From positions 1-19,302 of the forward strand of contig JAAZAP010000145.1 in NCBI GenBank assembly GCA_012514255.1: a stretch of 19,302 bases of DNA, written 5' to 3'. Each line of letters begins with the position of its first letter. Positions within the stretch are counted from its first letter, which is position 1. This document shows positions 1,736 through 19,302 of this stretch, one piece after another. The stretch comes from Bacteroidales bacterium (lineage in GTDB: Bacteria > Bacteroidota > Bacteroidia > Bacteroidales > VadinHA17). Made by a program: the position numbers and the translations under genes. The notes below the pieces were generated by a model. The model was not told the origin of the DNA and made no database searches. It saw nothing but the letters and a program-made list of their open reading frames with translations.

Positions 1736-1756
1736 ACTGACAATATTAGAGAAAAA

Positions 1757-1787
1757 TTTCCTGTCAAAAGATATCTTTATAGTTTTG
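1757..1787 (+). promoter_or_regulatory. Candidate murA promoter (Bacteroidota type)
   Basis: An exact match to the Bacteroidota -7 consensus TAnnTTTG (TAGTTTTG, 1780-1787) lies 31 bases before the murA ATG. It is preceded, with a 19-base spacer, by TTTC at 1757-1760, one mismatch from the TTTG -33 box. The site lies in the murB-murA intergenic region if murB begins at 1735. It was found by eye and not tested statistically. Confidence 0.45.
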
Positions 1788-1818
1788 TGCATGGATAAAT
1801 TCACTGAAAATCTGAAAA

Positions 1819-3129
1819 ATGAAATCATTCGAAGTGACAGGAGGTTGTAAGCTTAGCGGGGAGATCACACCGCAGGGAGCAAAAAATGAGGCCCTGCAGG
1901 TTTTGAGTGCAGTGATGCTTACTGATGAAGAGATAATTATCTCCAACATACCGGATATCGTTGACGTCAGGCTCATGATTGAGATGCTGGCCGACCTGGG
2001 AGTGAAAGTGAAGCGTATCACTGCCGACAGTTATAGTTTCAGAGCAATCGACGTGACGGCAGACAGGATGTATGATCCCGGTTTTCTGAAAAAGGCATCC
2101 GATCTCAGGGGATCGGTCATGTTAGCCGGGCCGCTGCTGGCGAGGCATAAGAGGTCAGTGATACCAAGACCCGGTGGTGACAAGATTGGAAGAAGAAGGA
2201 TGGACACACATATAACCGGTTTCCAGAAGCTGGGTGCGACTGTTGAATATGACTGTGAACCGGGATGCTTCAGGTTAACCGCAAAGTCACTCAAAGGAAC
2301 ATATATCCTCCTTGATGAGCCTTCAGTCACGGGAACAGCCAATATGATCATGGCCGCAGTGAAGGCAGAGGGTATAACTACTATCTACAACGCTGCCTGT
2401 GAGCCCTATATCCAGCAACTATGCATAATGCTGAACAATATGGGAGCCAGTATAAGCGGCATAGGTTCAAATCTTTTGACTATCAGCGGAGTGGATGAAT
2501 TGCACGGTTGCCGGCACCGTATCCTTCCTGATATGATCGAGACAGGTTCATTCCTGGGTCTGGCTGCTATAACCGGATCATCACTGCGTATTAAAAATGC
2601 CGGTATACCGCATCTGGGAATCATACCTGAAAGATTCAGGCAACTGGGGATCAGGTTTCATTTCGAAGGTGATGATATCATTGTGCCTGAGCAGGACACC
2701 TATGAGATACAGAATAACATAGACGGCTCCATACTGACCATTTATGATCATCCATGGCCCGGGTTAACGCCTGATCTTATCAGTATACTTCTGGTGGTTG
2801 CAGTTCAGGCCAGGGGCAGTGTTCTCATTCACCAGAAGATGTTTGAAAGCCGACTCTATTTTGTAGATAAACTCATTGATATGGGTGCGAGGATCGTTCT
2901 GTGTGATCCGCACCGTGCCACTGTAATAGGTCTTGAGCGGCGACAGCAACTGAGAGGTATCACCATGTCGAGTCCGGATATAAGGGCGGGGATGGCTCTG
3001 CTCATTGCCGCCCTCAGCGCCGATGGCAAAAGTCTGATCCATAATATTGAACAGATAGACAGGGGCTACCAGGAGCTCGAAATCAGACTTAACAGCCTTG
3101 GCGCCCGGATAAGAAGGATAGATTTCTGA
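1819..3129 (+). CDS. murA: UDP-N-acetylglucosamine 1-carboxyvinyltransferase MurA, aspartate-type active site
   Basis: Transfers enolpyruvate from phosphoenolpyruvate to UDP-GlcNAc, the first committed step of peptidoglycan synthesis, in the cytoplasm. The 436 residues cover the whole two-domain EPSP-synthase fold. KNEAL at 22-26 holds the Lys-Asn pair of the substrate site. PGLTPD (about residues 315-320) carries the base corresponding to E. coli Asp305. FESRLYFVDKL and DIRAGMAL match the C-terminal conserved blocks. The mobile-loop motif reads PGGDKIGRR: residue 121 is Asp (codon 2179-2181) where E. coli has Cys115, the residue alkylated by fosfomycin. Asp-type MurA enzymes, as in mycobacteria and chlamydiae, are active but fosfomycin-insensitive. 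Diverges from murB, with only 13 bases between its stop and the convergent amidase remnant. No strong SD precedes the ATG, as is usual in this phylum. Confidence 0.95.
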   Translation: MKSFEVTGGCKLSGEITPQGAKNEALQVLSAVMLTDEEIIISNIPDIVDVRLMIEMLADLGVKVKRITADSYSFRAIDVTADRMYDPGFLKKASDLRGSVMLAGPLLARHKRSVIPRPGGDKIGRRRMDTHITGFQKLGATVEYDCEPGCFRLTAKSLKGTYILLDEPSVTGTANMIMAAVKAEGITTIYNAACEPYIQQLCIMLNNMGASISGIGSNLLTISGVDELHGCRHRILPDMIETGSFLGLAAITGSSLRIKNAGIPHLGIIPERFRQLGIRFHFEGDDIIVPEQDTYEIQNNIDGSILTIYDHPWPGLTPDLISILLVVAVQARGSVLIHQKMFESRLYFVDKLIDMGARIVLCDPHRATVIGLERRQQLRGITMSSPDIRAGMALLIAALSADGKSLIHNIEQIDRGYQELEIRLNSLGARIRRIDF

Positions 3130-3142
3130 TCTGCGTACGCTG

Positions 3143-3763
3143 TTACTGGCACATATGCTTCAGGTAGTCCACCAATCCCTCGTAAATTTTAACTGCCATC
3201 TGCTGCCGGAACTCCGGATCAGCAAGCTTCTCCTCATCTTCGGCATGGGTCATGAAGGCCTGCTCAACGAGGACTGCCGGAAGCTGCGAAGCGCGGGTGA
3301 AAGTGTAGTTGAATGCTCCCACCACGCCAAACTCCTCAAGTCCTGTCTCCAGAAGTCTGTCATAGATGGTCTGCGCCAGCGGCGCCCAGAAGGGACTGTG
3401 CCAGTAGGTGCTTGTCCCTGCCACCAAAAGGTATCCCCTGCCGCTGCTATTCAGTATCACTCCCGGACCGAGCTCTGACCTTATCGGTCCGTCCAGCCGG
3501 GGCGCACCGAGATTGTAAACCAGCCTTGCCTCCTGTCCGCGGGAGCCACTGAAGCTCACCCCTGTTCAGGGTGATTTTCCTACCCGCGCGGTCCGCTACA
3601 AAGAGAGCGGTCAGATCAAGTTCAACAGGCTGACCCTTTGCCCCGTGAACTTCCCTGGCACGAGGCCGGGATACCTCAGTGGCAGTCTGTATTGTTTTGC
3701 CCGTGGTACTGCATCCTGCAACCACGGCAACTGAAGCCATTAAAATTATAAGGTTCTTTTCAT
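3143..3763 (-). pseudogene. Frameshifted lipoprotein with C-terminal half of an N-acetylmuramoyl-L-alanine amidase (Amidase_3) domain
   Basis: Amidase_3 enzymes cut the MurNAc-L-Ala bond of peptidoglycan. An ATG at 3763-3761 overlaps the upstream gene's stop as ATGA, but that frame stops after five codons. Adding one A to the AAAA run at 3757-3760 would restore the start MKKNLIILMASVAVVAGC, a textbook lipoprotein signal. A second shift lies in GGGG (minus strand, 3559-3562): removing one G joins residues ...KITLN to VSFSGSRGQEAR... The repaired protein would be about 207 residues. Its last 90 match the end of amidases (GTSTYWHSPFWAPLA, then LPAVLVEQAF with the catalytic Glu, then EKLADPEFRQ). 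The preceding DPGHGG block and the zinc His and Glu ligands are absent, replaced by about 80 unrecognised residues. It is either a decaying gene with an internal deletion or sequence error combined with a divergent domain. Two compensating one-base errors in short homopolymers make sequencing error a real possibility. Confidence 0.7.
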
Positions 3764-6781: not shown

Positions 6782-7546
6782 TTATACAAGCGTCACCTCT
6801 ATGCCTTTCTCGCGGATTATCTGAATGATATTGCCAGGTGCATTCCGGTCAGTAATAATGTGGTGCACCTTGGAAAGGTTGCAGATCTTACCGAATCCCC
6901 TTTTCCCAAATTTGGTGGAGTCAGCCAGCACTATCACCTCCTGGGCGGCATTGATCATGTACTGGTTGAGGTGGGCCTCCGCTATGTTGCTTGTCGTCAG
7001 TCCCTCATCCAGATCCAGACCGTCAATGCCCAGGAACAGCTTGCTGCAGATCATCTCTGTCAGCAGTGACTCGGCATACGGTCCTATCACTGAAGCTGAG
7101 CTCTTGCGAAGCGATCCCCCAAGCTGAATGATGTCAACATTCGGTTTGTAGCTGAGGATAAGTGAGACCTTTACTGAGGGAGTGATGACGGTAATGGGAT
7201 CAGTGATGGTGATATGCTGTGCAAAGATCAGGACAGTGGTGCCGGAAGCAATGATGATCCTGTCATTCTTTTCCAGCAACCCGTTGGCAGCTTCAGCTAT
7301 CCTCCTCTTTTCATTCACCTGCACCTTTTCCTTCTCGTCAATATGCCTGTCAATGGTCAGGGAACTGACCGGACCGGCACTGCCATGCGACCGGATGAGC
7401 AGCCTGCGATCCTCAAGATCTTTCAAATCCTTTCGAACCGTAACTTCAGAAACTCCCAACCGTAAGCTGAGGTCATGCACTCTCACATAACCCTCCTTTT
7501 CAAGTTCAGCCAGTATTATCTTGTGGCGCTGAGCAATGTTTCTCAT
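6782..7546 (-). CDS. glpR: DeoR-family transcriptional regulator, probable glycerol-3-phosphate repressor GlpR
   Basis: A 254-residue protein of normal length for the DeoR family of sugar-phosphate-responsive repressors. An N-terminal winged helix-turn-helix (residues about 6-58) contains the DeoR recognition pattern LRLGVSEVTVRKDLKDLE, followed by the LIRSHGSAG turn. The C-terminal DeoRC sensor domain (about 75-235) shows the phosphate-binding SGTT at 101-104, GGSLRKSSASVIGP, LFLGIDGLDLDEGLTT and LADSTKFGK. The last motif carries the Asp and Lys that bind phosphorylated effectors in this family. Specificity is assigned by position: it is divergent from glpD with a 202-base shared control region, and glpT and a glycerophosphodiesterase lie downstream in the same cluster. 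I infer that it represses this cluster and is released by sn-glycerol-3-phosphate. If the cluster's inducer is another sugar phosphate, the symbol would be wrong, but the family call is secure. Confidence 0.85.
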   Translation of the reverse strand: MRNIAQRHKIILAELEKEGYVRVHDLSLRLGVSEVTVRKDLKDLEDRRLLIRSHGSAGPVSSLTIDRHIDEKEKVQVNEKRRIAEAANGLLEKNDRIIIASGTTVLIFAQHITITDPITVITPSVKVSLILSYKPNVDIIQLGGSLRKSSASVIGPYAESLLTEMICSKLFLGIDGLDLDEGLTTSNIAEAHLNQYMINAAQEVIVLADSTKFGKRGFGKICNLSKVHHIITDRNAPGNIIQIIREKGIEVTLV

Positions 7547-7595
7547 TAGTATTTACCGTACTCCGGTTTTATTGGTCACCCCGTAAAGGTAAAAA

Positions 7596-7603
7596 CAAAA
7601 GTA
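7596..7603 (-). promoter_or_regulatory. Candidate -7 box for glpR
   Basis: TACTTTTG on the minus strand matches TAnnTTTG exactly, 49 bases before the glpR ATG, in a very A/T-rich stretch where chance matches are likely. The -33 position holds only a T-rich run rather than TTTG. Confidence 0.3.
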
Positions 7604-7631
7604 AAAATAAACAACAAAAATAAAATCTTGA

Positions 7632-7668
7632 GAAAATAAAAATATTACGAATAGTTATTTTTTCTTTC
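7632..7668. promoter_or_regulatory. Imperfect palindrome, candidate regulator operator
   Basis: Two 12-base arms (7632-7643 and 7657-7668) are reverse complements at 10 of 12 positions, separated by 13 bases containing TTACGAATA. The site sits between the divergent glpR and glpD start regions, just upstream of the proposed glpD -33 box. That is a plausible place for the DeoR-family protein encoded next door to act on both genes. Low sequence complexity weakens the case. Confidence 0.3.
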
Positions 7669-7676
7669 CTTTTTGT

Positions 7677-7707
7677 TTTGATTTATTAAATCCTTCTCAT
7701 AATTTTA
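7677..7707 (+). promoter_or_regulatory. Candidate glpD-operon promoter (Bacteroidota type)
   Basis: TTTG at 7677-7680 and TAATTTTA at 7700-7707 (one mismatch to TAnnTTTG) are separated by 19 bases, the usual spacing for the Bacteroidota primary sigma factor. The predicted transcript would start about 35 bases before glpD and probably cover the seven-gene cluster. Confidence 0.45.
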
Positions 7708-7748
7708 CACTGTTTTCTGACATTAATCATAATTAAGCCATAATAACA

Positions 7749-9320
7749 TTGAATAGAGAAGATTTTCTAAAGGATTTGAAAGACTCCAGGAAGCAATGGG
7801 ATTTCATAATCATAGGAGGAGGAGCCACCGGTCTGGGTATTGCCGTTGATGCTGTGACCAGGGGTTACAGCACGCTCCTGCTTGAGCAGTCTGACTTTGC
7901 AAAGGCCACCTCGGCCCGCAGTACAAAACTTGTTCACGGTGGGGTGCGTTATCTTCAGAAGGGCGACGTAGCACTGGTGAGGGAGGCGCTTCGTGAAAGG
8001 GGGTACCTCCTGAGGAACGCCCCCCACCTGGTTAAGAACCAGCGTTTCATAATAGGCAACTATAAATGGTGGGAAAAACCCTTCTATTCCATCGGACTTA
8101 CCTTTTATGACCTCCTGTCAGGCGGCATGAGCCTGGGGCGGTCGCTCCCGATGAGCCGCAGCAGGGTGATCAATTCAATACCGCAGATAGTCAGGCAGGG
8201 TCTCAAAGGAGGAGTTGTCTATCACGACGGTCAGTTTGATGATTCACGCCTGGCCATCAACCTGATGCAGACAGCCATTGAAAAGGGTGCAACGGCAGTT
8301 AACTATGTCAAGGTCACACAGCTACTCAAGAGCTCTGATGGCAAGGTGTCAGGCGTTGTGGCACGTGATGAGATTGAAGGCACGCACTTCACTGCCAACG
8401 GCAGTTGTATCATCAATGCCACCGGCATCTTCGTGGATGAGATAATAAGGATGGACAATCCTGATGAGAGACCACTTGTCAGGCCCAGCCAGGGGGTCCA
8501 CCTCGTTGTTGACAAAAGCTTCCTTGGCGGTGATGACGCCATCATGATACCCAAAACCAGTGACGGAAGAGTGATGTTCGGCGTACCATGGCACAACCGG
8601 GTCATACTGGGCACTACTGACGTACCTGTAAAGGAGTTTGTCCTTGAACCGAAAGCGCTTGATGAGGAGGTGGATTTTATTCTTGAGACCGCCGGAAGAT
8701 ACCTGGAGAAGAAGCCACAGCGCAGCGACGTGCTTTGCGTCTTTGCCGGCCTGAGGCCGCTGGCCGCACCAAAGCACGGTGGTGATGATGCCAAGACAAA
8801 AGAGATATCACGCAGTCATAAGCTTGTTGTGTCACCTTCAGGGCTTGTAACCATCACGGGAGGGAAATGGACCACCTATCGCAAGATGGCCGAGGATACA
8901 GTCAATGCCGGCATTAAAGCCAGGAAACTGCCCTTCAGTGAGTGCCGTACAAAAGATCTCAGGATACACGGGTACATGAAGAATCCTGACAGGAGTGACA
9001 GGAAATACATCTATGGCAGTGACCTCAGGGAAATTGAAAGGATCCATAGTGAGAATCCCGCTTGGGCAGAAAAGCTTAATGGCGAATCAGATTTCACCGT
9101 GGGCGAGGTTATCTGGGCAGTACAGAAGGAGATGGCACGCACCGTGGATGATGTCCTCGCACGAAGGGTAAGGGTTCTTTACCTCGATGCAATGAAATCC
9201 ATTGCCCTCGCTCCCAGGGTGGCAGAGATCATGGCAGCAGAGCTTGGCAAGGACAAAGAGTGGATCCGCCAACAGGTGGAGGAATACACCGAAATGGCAA
9301 AGGCATATGTAATGGCCTGA
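7749..9320 (+). CDS. glpD: Aerobic-type glycerol-3-phosphate dehydrogenase GlpD
   Basis: FAD-dependent enzyme that oxidises sn-glycerol-3-phosphate to dihydroxyacetone phosphate at the cytoplasmic membrane and passes electrons to quinones. The FAD dinucleotide fold is at the N-terminus (IIIGGGATGLG, 20-30). The family signature ATSARSTKLVHGGVRYLQ lies at 53-70, GTTD at 288-291, FAGLRPL at 332-338 and TGGKWTTYR at 370-378. A helical C-terminal DAO_C domain follows, giving 523 residues, near the usual 500-560. The start is a TTG at 7749. An in-frame TAA lies at 7734-7736 and no ATG or GTG occurs between, so TTG is the best choice, placing the FAD motif at the normal distance from the N-terminus. 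First gene of the rightward cluster, divergent from glpR and 27 bases before the sulfatase. It provides the catabolic end point for glycerol-3-phosphate imported by GlpT. Confidence 0.95.
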   Translation: MNREDFLKDLKDSRKQWDFIIIGGGATGLGIAVDAVTRGYSTLLLEQSDFAKATSARSTKLVHGGVRYLQKGDVALVREALRERGYLLRNAPHLVKNQRFIIGNYKWWEKPFYSIGLTFYDLLSGGMSLGRSLPMSRSRVINSIPQIVRQGLKGGVVYHDGQFDDSRLAINLMQTAIEKGATAVNYVKVTQLLKSSDGKVSGVVARDEIEGTHFTANGSCIINATGIFVDEIIRMDNPDERPLVRPSQGVHLVVDKSFLGGDDAIMIPKTSDGRVMFGVPWHNRVILGTTDVPVKEFVLEPKALDEEVDFILETAGRYLEKKPQRSDVLCVFAGLRPLAAPKHGGDDAKTKEISRSHKLVVSPSGLVTITGGKWTTYRKMAEDTVNAGIKARKLPFSECRTKDLRIHGYMKNPDRSDRKYIYGSDLREIERIHSENPAWAEKLNGESDFTVGEVIWAVQKEMARTVDDVLARRVRVLYLDAMKSIALAPRVAEIMAAELGKDKEWIRQQVEEYTEMAKAYVMA

Positions 9321-9347
9321 TAGGGAACGTTTTAAATTAAATCAGCA

Positions 9348-11114
9348 ATGGGGAAGAGAGATTCATTTTTTTGCAGCACGAAGGCAGGAGTGATTTCACT
9401 CCCTGCCTTCATCCTTGCCATCTTATCACTCGGTTCCTGCTCTTCAGGGAGCAGTAGTACAGAAGCGCCAAAACCCAATATCATGGTTATTCTCTCTGAT
9501 GATATTGGCTACTCTGATATAGGATCATACGGCTCTGAGATCAATACGCCAAATCTTGACCGGCTGGCCGCAGGCGGCATTCGCTTCACGCACTTCTACA
9601 ACACCGCCCGCTGCAGTCCCAGCCGTGCATCGCTGCTCACCGGCCTCTATCCCCACCAGGCTGCCATGGGGCACCTGGCTACCAGGCCTTTATGGGATGA
9701 GACGGGTTACCTTGACGACCTTAACAGGAATAGCGCCACCATTGCTGAGGTGCTCAGGGAGGCAGGCTATGCCACATATATGACAGGCAAGTGGCATCTC
9801 TATGGGATGAAAGCCTCCGTCCTGCCCGATGAGACTAATACTGATACGACCAACTGGCCTCTGCAGCGGGGCTTTGACCGCTTCTTCGGCCACCTGAGCG
9901 GCTCATGCAGTTACTGGGATCCTTTCACCCTCCTCAGCGGCAACAGGTATATCATTCCTGGCGAAGGCTTCTATTACACTGATGCCATCAGTGACACTGC
10001 AGTGAAGTTCATCCACGAGCATCCTGCCGGCAAACCTTTCTTCCTTTACGTTGCCTACTATGCCGCGCACTGGCCCCTCCATGCTCCGGAAGAGGAGATA
10101 CAGAAGTATGACGGGGTCTATGATACCGGATGGGACTCACTGAGGGCGCATCGCTACAAGAAACAGCAGGAACTGGGGGTGATTACCCCGGCCCACCGCC
10201 TCTCTGAACGAACTGAATCAATCATTCCCTGGGAGGACGAACCAATGAAAGAATGGCAGTCGCGCCGCATGGAGACCTACGCCGCCATGATTGACATAAT
10301 GGACCAGGGTATCGGCAGGATCATTGCCGCACTGGAGGAGACAGGCCAGCTTGACAACACAATAATATTATATATGCAGGACAACGGCGGTTGTGCCGAG
10401 CCGGTGCTGACCAACAGGATGGCCAAACCGCTTACTGAAGAACAGAAGCAGCTTAAGCCTTACCCCCCTGACCATATCCTCACCGTCAGGAAGCCTGAAT
10501 ATACGCGTGATGGACGCTTTATCAGAAGCGGCCGTGGCGTCATGGCCGGACCTGCTGACACCTGGGTGGCCTATGGTGAGGAGTGGGCCAACGCCAGCAA
10601 TACACCCTTCAGGCTCTATAAGTCCTTCGTTCATGAAGGAGGCATAGCAACGCCCCTGATAGTACACTGGCCCGCGGGCCTGAAGAGGAAAGGGGCAATA
10701 GAGGACGAACCGGGACATCTTATTGATATCATGCCCACCTGCCTGGAGCTGGCAGGAGCGAATTTTCCCGGTGAGTTCAACGACACCGCTGCCACCCCTC
10801 CTGAGGGACTTAGCCTCCTGCCCCTTTTTGAGGGCAAAAGGCTTGACCGCGAGTTCCTCTTCTGGGAGCATGAAGGAAACAGGGCCATCCGCATGGGCAG
10901 ATGGAAGCTGGTACAGCAACTCCCGGAACCAATGCATTTCACCGCGGAAGATGAGAACAGATGGGAGCTTTATGATCTTGAGAAAGACCCCTCGGAGACG
11001 GAAGACCTCGCAGCAAAATACCCTGAAAGAGTAAAAGAAATGGCAGCAAAATGGGAAAAAGAGGCGCTGCGACTCGGAGCAAAGCCGTGGCCATGGGATC
11101 ATAACCCGAACTGA
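9348..11114 (+). CDS. Lipoprotein sulfatase (formylglycine-dependent, arylsulfatase family)
   Basis: Type I sulfatase of the alkaline phosphatase superfamily, hydrolysing sulfate esters in the periplasm or at the cell surface. The N-terminus is a lipoprotein signal (LSLGSC, lipidated Cys31). The metal site begins with DD at 51-52 in VILSDDIGYSDIG. CSPSR at 89-93 is the CxPxR sulfatase signature, whose Cys89 (codon 9612-9614) must be converted to formylglycine by a maturase not present in the window. TGKWHLYG, MQDNGG and WKLV blocks follow in the usual order, and 588 residues is normal. The gene lies between glpD (27 bases) and glpT (113 bases), so it is probably part of the same transcript. 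The substrate cannot be read from sequence. Context suggests a sulfated glycerol-containing compound. Phosphonate monoester hydrolases and some phosphodiesterases share this fold and nucleophile, so a phosphodiester substrate is an alternative. Confidence 0.9.
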   Translation: MGKRDSFFCSTKAGVISLPAFILAILSLGSCSSGSSSTEAPKPNIMVILSDDIGYSDIGSYGSEINTPNLDRLAAGGIRFTHFYNTARCSPSRASLLTGLYPHQAAMGHLATRPLWDETGYLDDLNRNSATIAEVLREAGYATYMTGKWHLYGMKASVLPDETNTDTTNWPLQRGFDRFFGHLSGSCSYWDPFTLLSGNRYIIPGEGFYYTDAISDTAVKFIHEHPAGKPFFLYVAYYAAHWPLHAPEEEIQKYDGVYDTGWDSLRAHRYKKQQELGVITPAHRLSERTESIIPWEDEPMKEWQSRRMETYAAMIDIMDQGIGRIIAALEETGQLDNTIILYMQDNGGCAEPVLTNRMAKPLTEEQKQLKPYPPDHILTVRKPEYTRDGRFIRSGRGVMAGPADTWVAYGEEWANASNTPFRLYKSFVHEGGIATPLIVHWPAGLKRKGAIEDEPGHLIDIMPTCLELAGANFPGEFNDTAATPPEGLSLLPLFEGKRLDREFLFWEHEGNRAIRMGRWKLVQQLPEPMHFTAEDENRWELYDLEKDPSETEDLAAKYPERVKEMAAKWEKEALRLGAKPWPWDHNPN

Positions 11115-11227
11115 GAGGGCATGCAGGATGTAACAATTAATTAATGTTAAAGAAGCCGTACCGATAAAAAGAAAACCAATATTTGACCGGGAAAACAAAA
11201 AACAGAAACCTGACAACCGAAACATCA

Positions 11228-12688
11228 ATGATAAATTTCCTCAAACCACCGCCTTACAAGGAGCCTCTGCCTGAAGATAAGATAGACAGAACCTACAAGC
11301 GTCTGCGCCTGCAGGTATTCATGGGAGCCTTCATAGGCTATGCCGCCTACTATCTTGTAAGGAAGAATCTGGCCCTGGCCATTCCCGGCATGATCCAGCC
11401 GGCAGAGAACGGAGGACTTGGTTACACCAAGCTTGAGCTGGGAATAGCTCTCTCAGCCATCTCAATAGCCTATGCTTTCAGCAAGTTCCTGATGGGCGCC
11501 CTCTCTGACAGGTCAGACGCAAGAAAGTTCCTGGTGATAGGGCTGGTGCTGTCATCCATATTGATGATGTCTGTAGGTCTTTTCCCATTCGCCACCAGCG
11601 CTGTATGGATCATCTTCCTCTTCATGCTGGTTATCGGGTGGCTGGCAGGAATGGGATGGCCTCCCTGCGGCCGGATAATGGTACACTGGTTCTCTCACAA
11701 TGAGCGAAGTTTCAAGATGGGTATCTGGAATACATCCCACACCGTTGGAAGCGGACTCATGGGTAACCTCGCAGCGTGGGGAACGATCCTTCTCGGCGGA
11801 CTCTTTATGGTTGACCTGGGCGGAGGAGTGATGGTGGAGCAGAGCTGGAGGGCCGTCTTCGTCTTCCCCAGCGCCGTGGCTCTGCTGCTGGCACTCTTCT
11901 GCTGGTGGGCACTGAAAGATACCCCGCAGTCGTGCGGCCTGCCGGCCATAGACAAATACAGGAATGACATTCCGGCACAAAAAGAGATGAGTTCTGATAA
12001 GAAAATTCCGGTAAAGGAACTCTTCACCAGGTACATCTTCAAGAACAAAATATTGTGGCTGATAGCCCTGGCTAACGTCTTTGTATACCTGATACGGTAC
12101 GGCATAGGCGACTGGGCTCCCACATACTGTGAAGAGGCAGGACTGCTCACCAGCGAGCAGAGCAAGATGGCTTTCTCATTGCATAACTATGCAGGCGTGC
12201 CCGGGATGATCCTCATCGGGTGGATATCGTCAAAGGTGTTCAAGGGTCGCTGCGCCCCGGCAAACGTGATCTACATGGTGCTGGTACTCCTCAGCGTGCT
12301 GCTCTACTGGAAGGCACTGCCGGTGGCATCATTTTTCACCGATCTGCTGGGCAGCAATCCTGATACAACCAGGGTTACCGTGGTCTATTCGGCCCTCATT
12401 GCCATCGGCTTCTTCATCTACGGCCCTGTAGCGCTCATCGGCGTGCAGGCAGTGAATCTTGTGCCCAAGAATGCAGCAGGAACAGCCGCGGGCTTCGTTG
12501 GTCTCTTCGGGTACCTCATAGGTGATGCCCTTCTCTCAAAGGTGCTCATCGGGGCGGTGGCAGACAACGTAAGCCTCGGATGGAATGCAACCTTCTGGAT
12601 CTTTATCGCTGCCAGCATACTGGCGGCACTCTTCTCAGCCACCACATGGAAAAAGGAAAAAGAAACATACCAGGGAAACACAAAATAG
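11228..12688 (+). CDS. glpT: Glycerol-3-phosphate:phosphate antiporter GlpT (MFS)
   Basis: Inner-membrane major facilitator of the organophosphate:phosphate antiporter family, importing sn-glycerol-3-phosphate in exchange for phosphate. The N-terminus FLKPPPYKEPLP and the block RLRLQVFMGAFIGYAAYYL closely resemble E. coli GlpT. Arg45 (YLVRKN) and Arg290 (YLIRYGIGDW) match the two arginines that bind the phosphate group, and His171 matches the E. coli histidine in the same site. GMGWPPCGR, KDTPQSCGLP and AAGFVGLFGYL are further family blocks. Twelve hydrophobic segments can be followed. An extension at residues 190-206 (GGLFMVDLGGGVMVEQS) sits in a loop. The frame is open to a TTG at 11183, but I chose the ATG at 11228 (486 residues) because it aligns with GlpT's start. 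The 113-base gap before it shows no clear promoter or terminator. UhpT-like specificity is possible but less likely beside glpD and GDPD. Confidence 0.93.
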   Translation: MINFLKPPPYKEPLPEDKIDRTYKRLRLQVFMGAFIGYAAYYLVRKNLALAIPGMIQPAENGGLGYTKLELGIALSAISIAYAFSKFLMGALSDRSDARKFLVIGLVLSSILMMSVGLFPFATSAVWIIFLFMLVIGWLAGMGWPPCGRIMVHWFSHNERSFKMGIWNTSHTVGSGLMGNLAAWGTILLGGLFMVDLGGGVMVEQSWRAVFVFPSAVALLLALFCWWALKDTPQSCGLPAIDKYRNDIPAQKEMSSDKKIPVKELFTRYIFKNKILWLIALANVFVYLIRYGIGDWAPTYCEEAGLLTSEQSKMAFSLHNYAGVPGMILIGWISSKVFKGRCAPANVIYMVLVLLSVLLYWKALPVASFFTDLLGSNPDTTRVTVVYSALIAIGFFIYGPVALIGVQAVNLVPKNAAGTAAGFVGLFGYLIGDALLSKVLIGAVADNVSLGWNATFWIFIAASILAALFSATTWKKEKETYQGNTK

Positions 12689-12693
12689 AAGTA

Positions 12694-13623
12694 ATGAAGC
12701 GATTAACACTGACAATTCTTGCAGCAGCATTCTGCCTTACAACTTCGCTCCACGCGCAGACCTACAGGAACATCTCCGGATGGTCAGGGGAGATCAACAA
12801 TAAAATAGAGGATTTCCTTAACTCAACCATCACGATGAGCATACGTAAGGTGGCGGTGTTTGACAGTGACGGCACTACCTTCGGTCAGGTGCCTCACTAC
12901 CTTGCTGACGAGGCTCTCTACAGGTATGCTGACCTGGTACTGAAAGAGAGAAAAGACAAAGAGGCCAGGGAGAAGCTCAGGATACTCGATCGCATGGTAA
13001 AGGACGGCAATAATGTCGGCAAGCCATACGTGGAAGACAGGGTTCACTTCCTTGCAGGGCTCAGTCCCGAAGAGATAGAGATGATAGGTTATCAATGCTA
13101 TGAGGAATCATACAGGAACAAGACCTATCCTGAGATGAAACAGCTTGTAGCCAACCTGAAGGAATACGGCTTTGAGGTATATATCCTGACCGCCTCACCT
13201 GAGTTCCTGTACCAGAAGTTCGTTTCCGAGGAGTACGGCATACCGGTCACCAACGTCCTGGGTGCCAAATGCGTGGTAAAAGAGGGTGTCACCACCGGCG
13301 AGATCATCCCTCCCATCCCCCAGGATGACGGAAAGGCTCATACCATTGAGACCTTCATCAAGACCAGGCCCCTGATTGTCGGAGGGAACAGCCGCGGTGA
13401 CATGGATATGCTGAATGAGTCTGCCGGCCTGAAGATAGTTGTCAATCCTGATGACATCACTGTCCGCGGTCCTGAAGACGGCCCCATGAACGGCCATACG
13501 GTCAAATCATACTGGGAAAAGGAAGGTGCCCTGATAGTAAGGTGCAATGATGTCAGAGATCCGAAGGTCCGGTTCCACACCGGTGAATGGAAGATAAGAG
13601 AGAATGTTGCAAATCCAAAATGA
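12694..13623 (+). CDS. Secreted HAD-superfamily phosphatase
   Basis: A 309-residue phosphatase with a cleavable signal peptide (MKRLTLTILA hydrophobic start, likely cut after Ala21 in LHAQT), hence periplasmic. HAD motif I is VAVFDSDGTTFG, with nucleophile Asp57 and acid/base Asp59. Motif II is ILTAS (Ser168 or Thr166), motif III probably Lys214, and motif IV GGNSRGDMDM with Asp236 and Asp238. The layout, with a helical cap between motifs I and II, resembles phosphoserine-phosphatase-like HAD enzymes. The export signal argues against serine biosynthesis. Pseudomonas phosphorylcholine phosphatase PchP is a known exported HAD enzyme of similar size that handles head groups, so phosphocholine, phosphoethanolamine or a similar ester is a reasonable guess. 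The ATG lies five bases after the glpT stop and 15 bases separate its stop from the GDPD gene, so it is clearly within the operon. Substrate is unproven. Confidence 0.85.
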   Translation: MKRLTLTILAAAFCLTTSLHAQTYRNISGWSGEINNKIEDFLNSTITMSIRKVAVFDSDGTTFGQVPHYLADEALYRYADLVLKERKDKEAREKLRILDRMVKDGNNVGKPYVEDRVHFLAGLSPEEIEMIGYQCYEESYRNKTYPEMKQLVANLKEYGFEVYILTASPEFLYQKFVSEEYGIPVTNVLGAKCVVKEGVTTGEIIPPIPQDDGKAHTIETFIKTRPLIVGGNSRGDMDMLNESAGLKIVVNPDDITVRGPEDGPMNGHTVKSYWEKEGALIVRCNDVRDPKVRFHTGEWKIRENVANPK

Positions 13624-13638
13624 TTATAACATATAAAT

Positions 13639-14817
13639 ATGAAAAGACTCTTATACATAACTATTGTGGCAGCGCTGTTTTCAGGTTGCGCACAGAACAA
13701 TGCCCCTGCCACCGGAGGGGTACAGGACTACATGCCTGACAATGCCGTCATAGCTCACAGGGGAACCATCTTCTGGGCTCCCGAGCTGACCGAGGCTGCT
13801 TTCCGTTGGGCCAGGAACACCGGCGCCGACTATATGGAGTTGGATGTCCACCGGTCAAAGGACAGCGTGCTGATAATCATGCACGACAAGACCTTTAAGC
13901 GAACAACGGATGTTGCGGAGAAGTTTCCCGGCAGGGAGGCTGATCCTGTAAGCAGCTTCACCTATGAGGAGATAATGACCCTCGATGCCGGCAGTGCCTT
14001 TAACAAAAAGAATCCTGACCAGGCAAGGCAAAGCTTCATCGGGCAGGATGTGCTGGTTTTTGAGGATGTGTTCCGCATCGCCGAAGGCAAACATATAAAG
14101 CGTAACGCCGACGGGACCCGCGTGGTAACGAAGGATGAGGCCGGCAGGTATCATTTTGAATATGAGGCTGATCCGGCAGATAATGGCCACAGACCCGGGA
14201 TTTATATCGAGACAAAGATCCCCGATGAATATCCCGCCCTGGAGGAGCAGATATATGATGAGTTGACACAGATAGGATGGAATCCTGTTGAAGGTGAGAT
14301 ACCTGCAGCGGATGAACCCTTCTTTAAGGAGGACAGGGTCAATGTAGGCAACACCAGGGGCAAAATACTGGTGCAGACCTTTTCACGCAATGGAATGATG
14401 AACTTTAAAAGAGTCTTTGACGAAAAGGTGCCTGCCAGCTTCCTTATCGGTAATCCGAAGACAAACACATTTGCCAGTGACGAGGTCACTGATGAGATCA
14501 TCGCTTTCGCGAAGGAGTGCGGAGCACAGTTCATCGGAACCAACCTGGGCGATGCCAATGACGGGCTCACAGCTGCCTTTGCCTCGAAGATACACGCTGC
14601 GGGGCTGAAGGCAAATGTCTACTCGTTCAATACAGTTGAACAGATGGAAAAATATTTCGGTGAGGGAGAAGGAAAGAAGGCCTCTCCCCTGCCCGACGGG
14701 ATGATCACCAACCGCACTGACCTGACCATTGACTTCTATCATGCGCGGAAGGTCAGGAAGCAGGGAACAGAGAAGAGCCCGCAGCAGATACTTGAGGAGC
14801 TTGGTTACAGCCAGTAA
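13639..14817 (+). CDS. glpQ: Lipoprotein glycerophosphodiester phosphodiesterase (GDPD, GlpQ-like)
   Basis: Hydrolyses glycerophosphodiesters such as glycerophosphocholine, glycerophosphoethanolamine or glycerophosphoglycerol to sn-glycerol-3-phosphate and an alcohol. A lipoprotein signal (VAALFSGC, Cys17) places it in the envelope. The GDPD core is plain: IAHRG at 38-42 (catalytic His40), the metal-ligand pair in MELDV (Glu67, Asp69), and IIMHD with His82, the second catalytic histidine. IYIETKIP and LVQTFSRN follow, and the C-terminal VYSFNTVEQM closes the barrel. The sequence has ELT where ENT is commoner after the first histidine. The 392 residues exceed the usual 250-330 because of an insertion at about 125-185 (NKKNPDQARQ to GHRPG). 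It follows the HAD phosphatase by 15 bases and precedes the metallophosphoesterase by 15 bases. It would make the substrate for GlpT. Confidence 0.92.
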   Translation: MKRLLYITIVAALFSGCAQNNAPATGGVQDYMPDNAVIAHRGTIFWAPELTEAAFRWARNTGADYMELDVHRSKDSVLIIMHDKTFKRTTDVAEKFPGREADPVSSFTYEEIMTLDAGSAFNKKNPDQARQSFIGQDVLVFEDVFRIAEGKHIKRNADGTRVVTKDEAGRYHFEYEADPADNGHRPGIYIETKIPDEYPALEEQIYDELTQIGWNPVEGEIPAADEPFFKEDRVNVGNTRGKILVQTFSRNGMMNFKRVFDEKVPASFLIGNPKTNTFASDEVTDEIIAFAKECGAQFIGTNLGDANDGLTAAFASKIHAAGLKANVYSFNTVEQMEKYFGEGEGKKASPLPDGMITNRTDLTIDFYHARKVRKQGTEKSPQQILEELGYSQ

Positions 14818-14820
14818 TAA

Positions 14821-14827
14821 AAAGGAG
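14821..14827 (+). promoter_or_regulatory. Strong Shine-Dalgarno before the metallophosphoesterase gene
   Basis: AAAGGAG ends five bases before the ATG at 14833. It is the only classical ribosome-binding site near a start in this cluster, unusual in a phylum where such sites are rare, and it fixes the start of the downstream gene. Confidence 0.6.
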
Positions 14828-14832
14828 ACTAA

Positions 14833-16782
14833 ATGCCAGAGATAAAGAAAATACTGTTTCTGTTTTTGATTGCAGCCATAGCTGCCTGCACGGGCTGCAA
14901 GGAGGATCCGCCTGATCCTGTTGATGAGGGACTGAAGATCACAGGAGTTTCAATACCAGGCAGTCTCAGTATTCCCCTGGGTGGTGAGATAACCCTTACC
15001 GGCAGCGGATTTGCCATAAATGACCAGATAGTGTTCGTGCTGACATCAGATGCAGGCAAGACCTTTACTGCCGTAATCACTGCAGTAACGGGACAGACAG
15101 CCACCTTCAACCTTCCTGCAGGCATCACCTCGGGCACCTACCGGCTGATAGTAAAGAGAGGGACAGAGAGCCTGGTACTCGGAACCCTCACTGTCAACGT
15201 CATTGCTGACACCGGTATCCCGGACAGGCCGGGCATGACGGTCAAGGGAGTGGTTTACTGTAACGGCGAAGGAGTCCCAGGAGTGGTTGTATCAGATGGC
15301 ACCGAGGTGACTGTCACTGACAGTGAAGGGATATATTACCTGCCGTCAACAAAAGGGAACGGCTTCGTCTTCATCTCAGTGCCGGGCAACTATGAGATTG
15401 CTGCAAGTGACAACATCCCCCAGTTCTTCAGGCGACTGTCAGCAGGCAGCACGGTGGAACAACACGACTTCTCACTCATAGAATCGAATAATGACAGCCA
15501 TGTAATGCTTACCATGGCCGACTGGCACCTTGCGAACAGGAATGATGATCTCACGCAATTCAGCAATGGCTTTCTGCCTGATGTGAATGCAACCATCAGC
15601 GCCTATGTCTCAGGTGGCAGAAAAGTATACGGTGCCCCGCTCGGTGATATGACCTGGGATGCCTACTGGTATGACAACAACTTCCGCCTTGAACACTACC
15701 TTGTTGAGATGAAGAAGGTCAACTGCCCCATGTTTAACGTGATAGGCAACCATGACAATGACCCCTATGTTCAGGGTGACATCCCGGCGGAGGCTCCTTT
15801 CAGGGAGCTCATAGGCCCCACATGGTATTCATTTAACCTGGGTCAGGTCCATTACGTGGTTCTTGATGGCATACAATACATAAACACCGGTGGTGCACAG
15901 GGGAATATCGGAAGCAGAAACTACAATGATGTTGTTGTTTCCGCCCAGACTAGCTGGCTGGCGAAAGACCTTGCAGCAATAGCAGACAAGAGCACTCCCC
16001 TGGTCATCCTCATCCACACACCGGTATATGGTAATCCTTCACTCGATCCCTCGGGAGAGCAGGTGAACACCATCGCGCTTAATAATGGCAGCACGTTGCT
16101 GTCACTGGTACAGGACTTTTCCGAGGTACATTTTGTCAGCGGACATACACATATCAACTTCACTGTTGAATCAGGTGACGTTATGGAGCATAACACAGCT
16201 GCCATCTGTGCCACCTGGTGGTGGACCGGCAAGACCGGCTATGCCAACAACCAGATATGCAAGGATGGCAGTCCCGGAGGCTATGGCGTATGGGAGGTTA
16301 ACGGCAGGGATCTGAGATGGTATTATAAGAGTATTGGCATGCCTGCCGAATATCAGTTCAGGAGCTATGACCTCAATGAGGTATATATCACTGCAGCAGA
16401 ATTTGCTCCCAACTCTACCGATGCACTGCTGTCAGAGTACGCCGGTGTCTATGCCTCACCCAATGCAGTAAATGATGTCCTCATCAATGTGTGGGGATAT
16501 GATCCGGAGTGGACGGTGGAGGTCACCGAGGGAGGCACACCGCTCAATGTAGAGCGGGTAACTGCCAAAGACCCTCTGCACATCATATCCTATGAAGCCA
16601 AAAGGCTTAATGTGGGAGCCACACCAACCAGCTCATTCGTTACGGGAAACACCTCGCACATGTTCCTTGTACGCGCATCATCAGCTACCTCCACGGTGGA
16701 GATAAAGGTGACTGACAGGTTCGGAAACATCTACACAGAGACAATGACCCGGCCAAAAGATTTTACATGGTCAATGCAATAA
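14833..16782 (+). CDS. Multidomain lipoprotein calcineurin-like metallophosphoesterase
   Basis: A 649-residue surface or periplasmic phosphoesterase. The lipoprotein signal offers AIAAC (Cys19) or CTGC (Cys22) as the lipidated residue; Cys19 fits the lipobox better. Residues about 36-125 look like an IPT/TIG immunoglobulin-like domain. Residues 135-213 look like the carboxypeptidase-regulatory-like module called MetallophosN. Residues about 222-460 are the catalytic domain, with ADWH (Asp230, His232), GDMTWD (Asp272), GNHD (305-308), HTP (His395) and SGHTH (436-440), all the di-metal ligands of the family. The remainder is the C-terminal domain often paired with it in Bacteroidota. Substrates of this subgroup are not established; activity on phosphomonoesters or phosphodiesters released by, or before, GDPD is inferred from position. 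It lies 15 bases after GDPD and 32 before the SusC gene. Confidence 0.88.
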   Translation: MPEIKKILFLFLIAAIAACTGCKEDPPDPVDEGLKITGVSIPGSLSIPLGGEITLTGSGFAINDQIVFVLTSDAGKTFTAVITAVTGQTATFNLPAGITSGTYRLIVKRGTESLVLGTLTVNVIADTGIPDRPGMTVKGVVYCNGEGVPGVVVSDGTEVTVTDSEGIYYLPSTKGNGFVFISVPGNYEIAASDNIPQFFRRLSAGSTVEQHDFSLIESNNDSHVMLTMADWHLANRNDDLTQFSNGFLPDVNATISAYVSGGRKVYGAPLGDMTWDAYWYDNNFRLEHYLVEMKKVNCPMFNVIGNHDNDPYVQGDIPAEAPFRELIGPTWYSFNLGQVHYVVLDGIQYINTGGAQGNIGSRNYNDVVVSAQTSWLAKDLAAIADKSTPLVILIHTPVYGNPSLDPSGEQVNTIALNNGSTLLSLVQDFSEVHFVSGHTHINFTVESGDVMEHNTAAICATWWWTGKTGYANNQICKDGSPGGYGVWEVNGRDLRWYYKSIGMPAEYQFRSYDLNEVYITAAEFAPNSTDALLSEYAGVYASPNAVNDVLINVWGYDPEWTVEVTEGGTPLNVERVTAKDPLHIISYEAKRLNVGATPTSSFVTGNTSHMFLVRASSATSTVEIKVTDRFGNIYTETMTRPKDFTWSMQ

Positions 16783-16814
16783 CCTACATATCAATTACTT
16801 AAAACCACTAATCT

Positions 16815-19302
16815 ATGAAAATCAAACCAGATCTGAAAATTATTCTTGCCACAATCCTGATGGCACTGGTAATGTTGCCGGTGATGGCTCAGGAGCGGCA
16901 GGTAACAGGTACGGTGCTTGAGCCTGATGGTGTAACCCCGGTCTTCGGGGCTACCGTAGTGCTCAAGGGCACTACCACTGGCACCAGCACTGATGCCAGA
17001 GGTGCATTCTCCATCAGGGTGACGGGAACAAACCCTGTACTGGAGATACAGTTCCTCGGTTATGAAAAGCAGGAGATAACTGTGGGTGACAGGAGTGTTA
17101 TCAACGTTACCCTGCAGGAAGAGGCAATCGAGGTATCGGCGGTGGTTGTCACCGCTCTCGGTCTGACACGTGAGGAGAAGTCGCTCGGCTATGCAGTGAC
17201 AAAAGTCGATAACGAGGAATTAACCCAGGTTGTCACTTCAAACTGGCTCAACGGAATGTCAGGCAAGGTTGCAGGACTGTCAACTGTGGGTGCAGGCACG
17301 GGACCAATCAGTTCCATGCGTGTGACACTGCGCGGCGACCAGTCCCTGAACTACTCGCTCAATGAGGCATTGTTCGTTGTTGATTGCATACCTGTAAGGT
17401 CGGGTGCCACGGCCACCTCATCAAGCAGCCCTTACACCAACTCGGGCGGAGACTTTCCGGTCGACTTCGGGAACGGAGCCAGTGACCTGAATCCTGAGGA
17501 TATTGAGTCAGTCTCTGTGCTGAAAGGCCCGGCAGCAACAGCACTGTACGGCTCACGTGCCGCCAACGGTGCAATAGTGATCACAACCAAGTCAGGCCGC
17601 AAAGACAGGGGTATTGGCGTCACAATCAACTCTTCGGTGGTGGCTGAGAGAGCCGGCTACTGGCCTGACTTTCAGACGCAGTTCGGTTCAGGTTCTGATA
17701 TGGGACTGAATGAGTACTGTTTCTGGACTCTCAATCCGGACCTTGTCGGAACCACTGATTACCCTTCAAGGAACCTGTCACGCTATGCCTGGGGCGAAGA
17801 GTTCAGTGCAGACAAGCTGCGTTACCAGTATGAAGGCAAGGACTGGGAGACAGGACTTATCTCCCCCACCCCATTCATCTACAAGGATGACTGGTTTACA
17901 GGCATCTTCCAGGACGGCGTTACCCTGAATAACTCAATAGCCATTAGCGGCAGCAATGGCGAAGGACAGAACGTACGCTTCTCCGTCACTGACACCAGGA
18001 ACAAATGGATACTGCCAAACACCGGTTTTCAGAAACAGGCTTACGCCTTCTCTTTTGAGACCCCGGTAAACAAATGGATCGATTTCAGGACAAAGGTTAA
18101 CTACTATCGCACCGACAGTGACAACATGCCCATGGCCGGTTATCACCAGACCACAGTAATGTATAACCTGATGTGGGGATACAACTCCAACTCGATGGCC
18201 GACTGGCGCAATGAATACTTTGAGGGCAGGTTCAACGAGATAAACAGGAATTCCAATATCTCACAGAATGGAAACAGCCTCGTCTTCGCCGGTACGGGCT
18301 CGTATAACCCATACAGGGTGCTTTATGAAGAGCTAAACACTACTGACAAGGACAGGGTCTTCGGCAACATTGGATTCACCTTTCACCTGCTTGAAGGGCT
18401 CACCCTCGACCTGAGGTCAGGAATGGACCTGGGAGCTGAATTCCGTACCCAGAGAAAACCCAAGCTCACTTATGTATGGAACAATGGCTTCTACAGGGAA
18501 CAGTCAATGCTCAATCTCGAGATAAACTCAGACTTCCTGCTGAAATATGAGAAGGCATTCCTTGACGGGAGGCTCACATCAACCTCCGCCTTCGGTGGGA
18601 ACAATATGGTGGATCACTACAGGAGAAATACTGTTCAGCTTGATGAACTGGATATTGACGGGGTTTACCATATAAACAACGTCCCTTTCGGAATAATTGC
18701 TGATCCTTCGAATTACAGGAGGTACAGGACTATCAACAGCCTTTACGGGTTTGTCTCTCTCGGCTGGGATGACACCTATTTTCTGGATATAACGGGCCGC
18801 AATGACTGGTCCAGCACACTCTCAAGAGACAACTGGTCATACTTCTACCCATCAGTTGCCGCCAGCGTCCTTCTTGACCAGGCTTTTGACTTCCGGAATA
18901 ACCTCCCTGCAGTCTCTTTTGCAAAGCTGCGCCTCTCATGGGCGAACGTGGGTAACGACACCAGTCCTTACTCACTTGACCAGTACTACTCCGCCTCTTC
19001 CATCAGTGGTGGCTACACACTGCCGTCAACCATTCCTGACCCGATGATACAGCCAGAAAACGTTGAGAGCTGGGAGCTGGGCCTTGATGCCAAGTTCCTG
19101 AAGAACCGTCTCGGTTTTGACCTTGCTCTCTACAACTCTTCTACCACCAACCAGATCGTCTCTGTAGACATAGATCCGATAGTGGGTGCTTCCGGGATGA
19201 AGATCAATGCCGGTGAGATCAATAACAAGGGTATCGAGGTCGCATTCTATGCAACACCGGTCAAGACCAGGGACTTCACCTGGGATATCAACCTCAACTG
19301 GG
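16815..19302 (+). CDS. SusC/RagA-family TonB-dependent outer-membrane receptor (partial, runs off right edge)
   Basis: Outer-membrane, TonB-energised importer; the 829 codons present have no stop and continue past the window. A signal peptide (residues 1-25, likely cut at MA|QE) is followed by a CarboxypepD_reg-like domain (about 28-106: VTGTVLEPDG, TSTDARGAFSI, FLGYEKQ). The plug domain has the SusC start VVVTALGLTREEKSLGYAV and the hallmark LKGPAATALYGSRAANGAIV before the barrel. The start is the ATG at 16815. SusC proteins normally work with a SusD surface lipoprotein encoded immediately downstream, which would lie beyond 19302. Unlike the usual polysaccharide loci, this receptor follows glycerophosphodiester genes rather than glycoside hydrolases, 32 bases after the phosphoesterase. 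I infer a phosphodiester or phospholipid-head-group cargo. Where the operon ends and what the ligand is cannot be seen. Confidence 0.93.
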   Translation, partial: MKIKPDLKIILATILMALVMLPVMAQERQVTGTVLEPDGVTPVFGATVVLKGTTTGTSTDARGAFSIRVTGTNPVLEIQFLGYEKQEITVGDRSVINVTLQEEAIEVSAVVVTALGLTREEKSLGYAVTKVDNEELTQVVTSNWLNGMSGKVAGLSTVGAGTGPISSMRVTLRGDQSLNYSLNEALFVVDCIPVRSGATATSSSSPYTNSGGDFPVDFGNGASDLNPEDIESVSVLKGPAATALYGSRAANGAIVITTKSGRKDRGIGVTINSSVVAERAGYWPDFQTQFGSGSDMGLNEYCFWTLNPDLVGTTDYPSRNLSRYAWGEEFSADKLRYQYEGKDWETGLISPTPFIYKDDWFTGIFQDGVTLNNSIAISGSNGEGQNVRFSVTDTRNKWILPNTGFQKQAYAFSFETPVNKWIDFRTKVNYYRTDSDNMPMAGYHQTTVMYNLMWGYNSNSMADWRNEYFEGRFNEINRNSNISQNGNSLVFAGTGSYNPYRVLYEELNTTDKDRVFGNIGFTFHLLEGLTLDLRSGMDLGAEFRTQRKPKLTYVWNNGFYREQSMLNLEINSDFLLKYEKAFLDGRLTSTSAFGGNNMVDHYRRNTVQLDELDIDGVYHINNVPFGIIADPSNYRRYRTINSLYGFVSLGWDDTYFLDITGRNDWSSTLSRDNWSYFYPSVAASVLLDQAFDFRNNLPAVSFAKLRLSWANVGNDTSPYSLDQYYSASSISGGYTLPSTIPDPMIQPENVESWELGLDAKFLKNRLGFDLALYNSSTTNQIVSVDIDPIVGASGMKINAGEINNKGIEVAFYATPVKTRDFTWDINLNW

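Follow-up and report, generated by a model that had tools for sequence, protein, structure and literature searches.

An operon at the 3' end of a 19,302-nucleotide stretch of DNA from a Bacteroidales bacterium of the VadinHA17 lineage (contig JAAZAP010000145.1; the whole stretch is referred to below as the window) joins genes for the use of glycerol phosphates to the gene of an outer-membrane importer of the SusC type. Open reading frame positions and Pfam and NCBIfam matches give a divergent DeoR-type regulator, followed by glpD, a sulfatase gene, glpT, and genes for an exported HAD phosphatase (HAD), a glycerophosphodiester phosphodiesterase (GDPD), a metallophosphoesterase (MPE) and SusC (Table 1). 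The eight genes lie where an initial annotation of this DNA had placed them and carry the expected domains. Its description of most intergenic gaps as 5-32 bases long is also correct: from glpD to susC the + strand gaps are 27, 113, 5, 15, 15 and 32 bases, the sole outlier (113) separating the sulfatase gene from glpT.

We think it probable that this is a DeoR/GlpR-controlled, SusCD-fed operon for feeding on glycerol-phosphate diesters that are too large, too rare or too much bound to lipid or polymer for porins. The argument is carried by gene content and gene order, by the conservation of both, and by the pairing of SusCD with GDPD/MPE and GlpT in more than one SusC lineage; the activities, their compartments, the order of the steps and the natural substrate we infer. 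MPE (perhaps at the surface), together with a SusD lid and a BACON lipoprotein (these two on the evidence of relatives), would bind and cut the substrate; SusC would bring the fragments across the outer membrane; the GDPD lipoprotein would free sn-glycerol-3-phosphate (G3P) in the periplasm; the exported HAD would dephosphorylate some of the glycerol phosphate, or strip the phosphate of the head group; GlpT would import G3P in exchange for phosphate; and GlpD would oxidise it to dihydroxyacetone phosphate (DHAP). The natural substrate would be phospholipids or their head groups, or the polyglycerol phosphate of Gram-positive walls. Phosphodiesters carried on a lipid or polymer are more likely than small free ones, since small diesters should hardly need SusCD.

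Recurrence of the operon in relatives

An alignment of HAD homologues (A1), used as the profile for a contig scan, yielded 55 loci, of which 54 are counted (the gene in L054 is partial). Within the run around HAD (same strand, gaps of no more than 400 bases), glpD is found in 40 of the 54, glpT in 36, GDPD in 31, MPE in 23, susC in 18, glpK and glpF in 13 each, the sulfatase gene in 9 and a relative of porin O/P in 3; since contigs end, these counts are lower bounds. The locus nearest to the window (L001, 'Bacteroidales bacterium') has identical gene order throughout and proteins that are 90-99% identical. A search for glpT-GDPD-susC neighbourhoods, proposed with the initial annotation, finds the order glpD-(sulfatase)-glpT-HAD-GDPD-MPE-susC recurring in Bacteroidales loci; among the members that hold susC are Mariniphaga, Maribellus, a Prolixibacteraceae and a Proteiniphilum metagenome-assembled genome (MAG), a Dysgonamonadaceae MAG, and 'Bacteroidales bacterium CF', whose HAD lies across glpR, on its far side. 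The claim that every enzyme of clear role points to glycerol phosphodiesters goes too far: the sulfatase is an accessory gene, and the family and fold of HAD are of the phosphomonoesterase type.

The window ends within susC, and susD was expected just past position 19302. In relatives susD does trail susC: in L002 susC is followed by SusD (PF12771, PF12741; SusD-like_2) and then by a BACON-domain protein; genes like these two lie behind susC in L004, L006, L007, L009, L011, L025 and L026; in L010 SusD alone follows, and the contig ends there; a SusD-like gene is also found behind susC in L015, L016 and L034. The predicted susD is thus observed in relatives.

Behind the glpD-glpT-HAD-GDPD-MPE core, Mariniphaga, Maribellus, Proteiniphilum and the Dysgonamonadaceae MAG carry a SusC of another type, which shares 30-36% identity with the SusC of the window over 31-62% of the latter. 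This second type is followed by a PF07980 SusD in the first case examined, with a similar SusD in the others where the contig is long enough. The near relative L008 holds yet another SusC (33%). One and the same slot of the operon is occupied by either of two distinct SusCD lineages. On a FastTree tree of 99 SusC sequences, the label "GDPD, MPE, GlpT or HAD in the run" (31 rows) requires 9 changes, where shuffled labels require 26.6 on average, a contrast to be read with the knowledge that rows were gathered by several routes and that near-copies inflate clustering. The SusC of the window lies in a 21-row clade (support 100) of which 18 rows are linked, and the second type forms an 8-row clade (support 96) with all 8 linked. 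(A technical note: the labels for the window, L002, L086 and L087 were set by hand, and the short loci L056-L085, 30 in number, were excluded from the SusC collection.)

Draws by GlpT and by SusC

GlpT is rare in these bacteria. TIGR00712 matches of at least 500 bits occur in 9 of 295 class-wide genomes, and GlpT matches of at least 460 bits in 22 of 393 order-wide genomes (23 genes); one gene is common to the two draws, leaving 31. Seventeen of these 31 share a run with GDPD and seven with SusC (L086, L087, L134, L105, L108, L109 and L112; ECF and FecR genes intervene between GlpT and SusC in L112, without which the count is 6/31). The order is glpK-glpF-GDPD-SusC-SusD-MPE-GDPD-GlpT-GDSL in L086 and glpK-glpF-SusC-SusD-DUF5689-GDPD-GlpT in L087. 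Twenty control stretches of 20 kb, taken from genomes of the samples, contain SusC somewhere in three cases (one weak, at 52 bits) and GDPD, MPE, GlpT or HAD in none; counted by run, SusC accompanies 13 of 300 control genes, and GDPD or MPE none of the 300. Run sharing of GlpT with SusC (7/31 vs 13/300) gives a Fisher p of 0.001, or 0.005 excluding L112, values that are only indicative because neither the genes within a run nor related genomes are independent of one another. Outside the 31 lie weaker GlpT-like matches, 11 loci (L094, L117-L126) at 214-329 bits and 8 more at 185-203 bits; L094, L125 and L126 (3/11) share a run with SusC.

A draw in the opposite direction, with the full-length SusC orthologue of L010 as query and at most two candidates scored per genome, gave at least 46 matches at E 1e-120 or better in at least 34 of the 295 genomes. 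Among the matches listed, 7 of the 11 at 540 bits or above (G015, G160, G309, G036, G271, G190, G095) lie beside GDPD, MPE or GlpT, as do 2 of the 35 weaker ones: G154:C4, beside MPE, and G088, where a same-strand GDPD gene lies five genes behind SusC and outside the gap-limited run (p 0.0002, with the 540-bit line drawn after the data had been seen and the genomes related). Two of the strong exceptions, L185 (PF04185) and L190 (PF01663, two PF00149), have other phosphoesterases behind SusD; the others are L189 (a DUF5689 relative with a weak PHP match) and L186 (a GH113 neighbour). Ten weaker SusC loci were scanned at a single gene behind SusD: in L201 the second, in the other nine the first. 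One of these genes is a phosphoesterase, in L191, whose order FecR-SusC-SusD-alkaline phosphatase (PF00245 with PF13653) is PUSII-like; the gene scanned in L192, L194, L195, L196, L200, L201, L202, L204 and L207 is not. SusC proteins near the window lineage and beside PF04185, PF01663/PF00149 and PF00245/PF13653 perhaps belong to a broader phosphoester-linked SusC lineage. When all candidates in seven chosen genomes were searched, six of these genomes (G002, G015, G160, G271, G190, G154) had their best SusC match in such a locus.

SusC is, in short, borne out as a member of the operon. That it should belong to an unrelated glycan locus, standing next to the glp genes in this strain only, fails on three counts: synteny, which puts SusC at the same place in distant Bacteroidales, the two SusC lineages in one slot, and the outcome of the SusC draw.

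Evidence to the contrary and rival explanations

A number of observations weigh against the proposed SusCD-fed operon. Fourteen of the 17 GDPD-linked GlpT runs are without SusC, as are the runs of MPE relatives in L130, L131 and L133, and G657, one of the seven chosen genomes, has its best SusC match at another place. Among near relatives, L008, L012 and L013 have lost SusC or MPE or carry it in replaced or degenerate form; L002, L004 and L007 have a split MPE; and SusC is split in L009 and short in L007. SusD lies beyond the end of the window and is observed in relatives only. The nearest solved SusC is BT2264 (273 bits) of the BT2261-2264 complex (5fq6-8), for which PMC7782687 mentions peptide ligands. 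The GlpT thresholds lie in gaps of the score list and, like the 540-bit line, were chosen after the scores had been seen. The linked genomes G015, G160, G271, G190, G095 and G154 had already been met via GlpT or MPE; earlier MPE matches existed in G309 and G036, and were not followed before the SusC draw. Loss and breakage of import genes in near relatives mean that the glp core exists without SusC and MPE: the import module is dispensable.

The absence of glpK and glpF from the window was originally taken as a sign of specialisation for G3P sources. This fits the operon, but not the cell: glpK is found over cut-off elsewhere in the genomes of 12 of 15 relatives, and glpK-glpF lies inside the sister SusCD operons of L040, L086 and L087, so that "specialised for G3P" describes the former and not the latter. 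(No glpK over cut-off is found in the genomes of L001, L013, which has a fragment only, and L026; these genomes are maybe incomplete.)

What else might such an operon be for? We give a low chance to the utilisation of teichoic acid (polyglycerol phosphate) specifically: MPE would cut the Gram-positive wall polymer outside, SusCD would import the pieces, GDPD would shorten them, and GlpT and GlpD would burn the product. In the clade of the window the operon is paired with a divergent NamZ-GHL10 lipoprotein and an amidase gene, and the use of peptidoglycan would then go hand in hand with that of the wall polymer. Also unlikely is an operon mainly for scavenging phosphate, a Bacteroidales form of PUS/PusCD in which imported diesters would be stripped for phosphate and the use of their carbon would be secondary. 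In Flavobacterium, according to PMC8115612, PusCD loci with phosphodiesterases, a PF13653 alkaline phosphatase and FecR/ECF are induced by phosphate depletion. A relative of the window SusC lies in the PUS-like locus L191, those of L185 and L190 lie beside PF04185 or PF01663+PF00149, and HAD would free phosphate. Against this stand the DeoR-type regulator, the first position of glpD, for the oxidation of G3P, and the lack of pho, pit and pst domains (Pfam) in the eight window proteins. GlpT, moreover, exports phosphate in exchange for G3P.

It is less probable still that SusCD imports a glycan bearing glycerol phosphate or sulfate (a capsule, or a phosphoglycerol-decorated polysaccharide) whose substituents the operon trims and uses. 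Most discussion of SusCD complexes treats them as importers of glycans, the S1 sulfatase is present in some of the loci, and the SusC relative of L186 lies near a GH113 gene; but most members are without the sulfatase, and Pfam finds no carbohydrate-active enzyme domain (glycoside hydrolase, lyase) in the + strand genes of 7749-19302. That SusC is a chance neighbour, or a general peptide or oligomer importer like BT2264 with no functional tie to the glp genes, we consider very improbable: the peptide ligand in print for that relative and the loss or replacement of SusC in L008, L012 and L013 speak for it, while its constant place in distant genomes, the sharing of that place by two lineages, the clustering on the tree and the SusC draw speak against it.

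Relation to known systems

The proposed diester-feeding operon can be set beside several known systems. The E. coli glp regulon has the same logic of GDPD, GlpT, GlpD and a DeoR-family repressor, but no TonB importer, MPE or exported HAD, and its genes are in separate operons. The GlpQ/PhoD/GlpT recovery of teichoic acid in B. subtilis, as commonly described, likewise combines a GlpQ-type diesterase, a second phosphodiesterase and GlpT; it acts on the cell's own Gram-positive wall, whereas the window has SusC and a phosphodiesterase of another family. Sus-like polysaccharide utilisation loci share SusC with the window, and SusD-like_2 and a BACON lipoprotein with its relatives; the + strand run of the window differs in being without carbohydrate-active enzyme domains. 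BT2261-2264, the SusCD with the nearest solved SusC, differs in its crystal ligand, a peptide. The Flavobacterium PusCD loci, reportedly the work of Lidbury et al., are alike in encoding a SusCD-like complex beside periplasmic phosphodiesterases and phosphatases; in the window GDPD and MPE lie upstream of susC.

In PMC8115612, PusCD loci adjoin phosphomonoesterases and phosphodiesterases, and some of them inner-membrane organophosphorus transporters as well; for the commonest PusCD the substrates proposed are nucleic acids and lipid head groups. The Flavobacterium loci tabulated there use ECF/FecR, whereas the operon of the window has its DeoR-type regulator and a G3P catabolic branch; the main text of PMC8115612 contains neither of the terms GlpT and GDPD. 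No SusC-GlpT-GDPD locus was found in the literature searched, which covered few subscription journals and is weak evidence of novelty. The earlier remark that no SusC locus of this kind had been described must consequently be narrowed: PusCD loci with phosphodiesterases are in print (PMC8115612), and it is the join to GlpT/GlpD that was not found. The locus adds to the SusCD/PUS kind, coupled to a G3P carbon route; as far as searched, its new element is a SusCD system joined to the carbon route through GlpT and GlpD, with a regulator of the DeoR type.

The recurrence of the pairing in related bacteria suggests that some importers of the SusC type live on lipid head groups or on debris of cell walls. 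The reach of SusCD would then extend to the glycerol backbone of membranes or wall polymers as a source of carbon and phosphate, a testable class of substrate for a SusC lineage whose nearest solved member has a peptide ligand, and susC beside glpT/GDPD would be a possible marker for the turnover of dead cells.

The regulator, the control region and the gene products

Table 1. Genes and control region of the operon in the window
Feature	Position	Strand	Domains and marks
DeoR-family regulator (GlpR-like), divergent from operon	6782..7546	-	PF00455+PF08220
Intergenic control region	7547..7748	.	promoter-like TTTG-N19-TAATTTTA, read by eye
glpD, FAD-dependent glycerol-3-phosphate dehydrogenase, TTG start	7749..9320	+	PF01266+PF16901
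S1 sulfatase, probable lipoprotein	9348..11114	+	PF00884; CSPSR motif
glpT, glycerol-3-phosphate/phosphate antiporter type	11228..12688	+	TIGR00712, 1pw4
Exported HAD-IB phosphatase, signal peptide ...LHAQ (by eye)	12694..13623	+	PF12710
GDPD, probable lipoprotein, LFSGC (by eye)	13639..14817	+	PF03009
MPE, calcineurin-type phosphoesterase, MetallophosN/C, extra N-terminal part, probable lipoprotein	14833..16782	+	PF16371, PF00149, PF16370
susC, TonB-dependent receptor	16815..19302	+	TIGR04056; cut by window end at residue 829

GlpR, GlpD and GlpT of the window all miss their NCBIfam equivalog cut-offs, so that these names rest on the ranking of matches and on the conserved neighbourhood. The regulator scores 114 bits with the E. 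coli type model PRK10906 (cut-off 331) and 180 with haloarchaeal GlpR (cut-off 300), and its best DeoR-type match is AgaR, at 217 (cut-off 260); it stands divergently beside glpD in 32 loci plus the window, glpD-glpK-glpF loci included. GlpD has DAO and DAO_C domains over the Pfam cut-off and 279 bits with the NCBIfam glycerol-3-phosphate dehydrogenase (cut-off 360), and its top NCBIfam models are G3P dehydrogenase and oxidase, all below cut-off. In the control region, which is much alike in near relatives, TAATTTTA agrees with the Bacteroidota -7 box, which we take to be TANNTTTG, at 5 of its 6 fixed bases; a strict Bacteroidota promoter consensus had no match in a scan of the whole window. 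A/T-rich words in 33 intergenic regions exceed one shuffled control (k-mer counts that were doubled by the canonical-word step), and no GlpR operator is claimed from them.

The CSPSR of the sulfatase, presumably the formylglycine motif C/S-x-P-x-R, aligns with PDB 7all and the arylsulfatase 1hdh, its nearest solved relatives. The P. aeruginosa arylsulfatase is said to be promiscuous as a phosphodiesterase, and by that analogy the sulfatase of the window may possibly act as a diesterase. For GlpT, TIGR00712 is the top model at 523 bits (cut-off 632; the next non-GlpT model scores 345), while the sister-operon GlpTs of L041, L086 and L087 pass the cut-off with 724, 744 and 701 bits. Its best PDB match is E. 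coli GlpT, 1pw4 (416 bits), and by eye the alignment keeps Arg45, Lys80, His165 and Arg269, which we take to be the substrate-site residues of the E. coli protein.

HAD has invariant D57, D59 and D236, with their neighbours, in alignment A1. It lies directly behind glpD-glpK-glpF in 10 of the 54 loci, and adjoins GlpT even in a Myxococcales contig (L053). Its export and its glpD-glpK-glpF, porin and GlpT neighbours make it a predicted glycerol-phosphate or head-group phosphatase. The structure model is weak (mean pLDDT 67) and matches 4as2, phosphorylcholine phosphatase, with a query-normalised TM of 0.51, and 6iuy with one of 0.43; these modest fold matches are not decisive for the substrate. 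(6iuy, according to PMC7468427, is a bidomain enzyme from an alga and converts DHAP to glycerol.) HAD lies ahead of the porin O/P relative in the three loci that have one (L027, L028 and L030): a glpT-HAD pair in Butyricimonas, and HAD alone in Bacteroides gallinarum, are followed by this gene (PF07396, confirmed in L027) in the place of GDPD-MPE-SusC, perhaps as an alternative outer-membrane route.

GDPD matches PF03009 with 81.8 bits (cut-off 23.6); HRG and HD, presumably its catalytic His motifs, are visible by eye, and its nearest solved relatives are 4r7o, 2oog and 5t91, the last two of which we take to be GlpQ enzymes. In MPE, D230, D272, N306, H307, H395, H438 and H440 are invariant, and H232 is kept in at least 90%, among 18 sequences (alignment A2); D-x-H, GD, GNHD, H and GHTH are, we assume, the two-metal ligand set of calcineurin-type phosphoesterases. 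The MPE model has a pLDDT of 82, and its catalytic part is nearest to Rv0805 and SMPDL3A/B. A script called a lipobox in only 15 of 36 MPE and 21 of 40 GDPD entries. Several MPE relatives have an acidic patch (KED, KDD, REE) behind the Cys, which GDPD mostly lacks, except in L038 (SDDDD). The published optimum for a surface signal (PMC5080379) is C-x-K-(D/E)2-x; a place for MPE at the cell surface is no more than suggested by its sequence, because the acidic spacing is non-optimal if the first Cys is lipidated. A GDSL lipase gene closes the SusC-SusD-MPE-GDPD clusters of L086 (by Pfam) and of L127 and L128 (by similarity), hinting at lysophospholipid or phospholipid substrates.

SusC scores 458 bits with TIGR04056 (cut-off 368) and has the TIGR04057 signature; its orthologues are about 1110 residues long. 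In L015 (13187-18651) the orthologue is longer (1212 residues) and lies inside a glpD-glpT-HAD-MPE operon with an ECF sigma/FecR pair ahead of it (FecR by Pfam, ECF named from its position), perhaps a regulatory switch for the import module.

Neighbouring genes

Beyond the regulator, the - strand gene at 3760-6546 encodes a 928-residue lipoprotein in which a GHL10 glycosidase-like domain is fused to NamZ exo-N-acetylmuramidase domains (Pfam). NamZ is no more than two genes away from glpR in 11 of 34 loci; since these 11 all belong to near relatives of the window, it is a clade neighbour and not a core gene. Between it and a murA-like gene lies an amidase_3 gene (3143-3740, - strand); the proteins of relatives (L009, L004) have 620-628 residues, and that of the window is far shorter, with matches to residues 268-298 and 527-628 only of the L004 protein, either because the gene is internally deleted or through a fault of assembly. 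At 692-3129 a murB-like gene (- strand) and the murA-like gene (+ strand) overlap by ten bases (1819-1828), and a lipoate-protein-ligase-like gene at 1-717 adjoins the pair, all three being named by reading.

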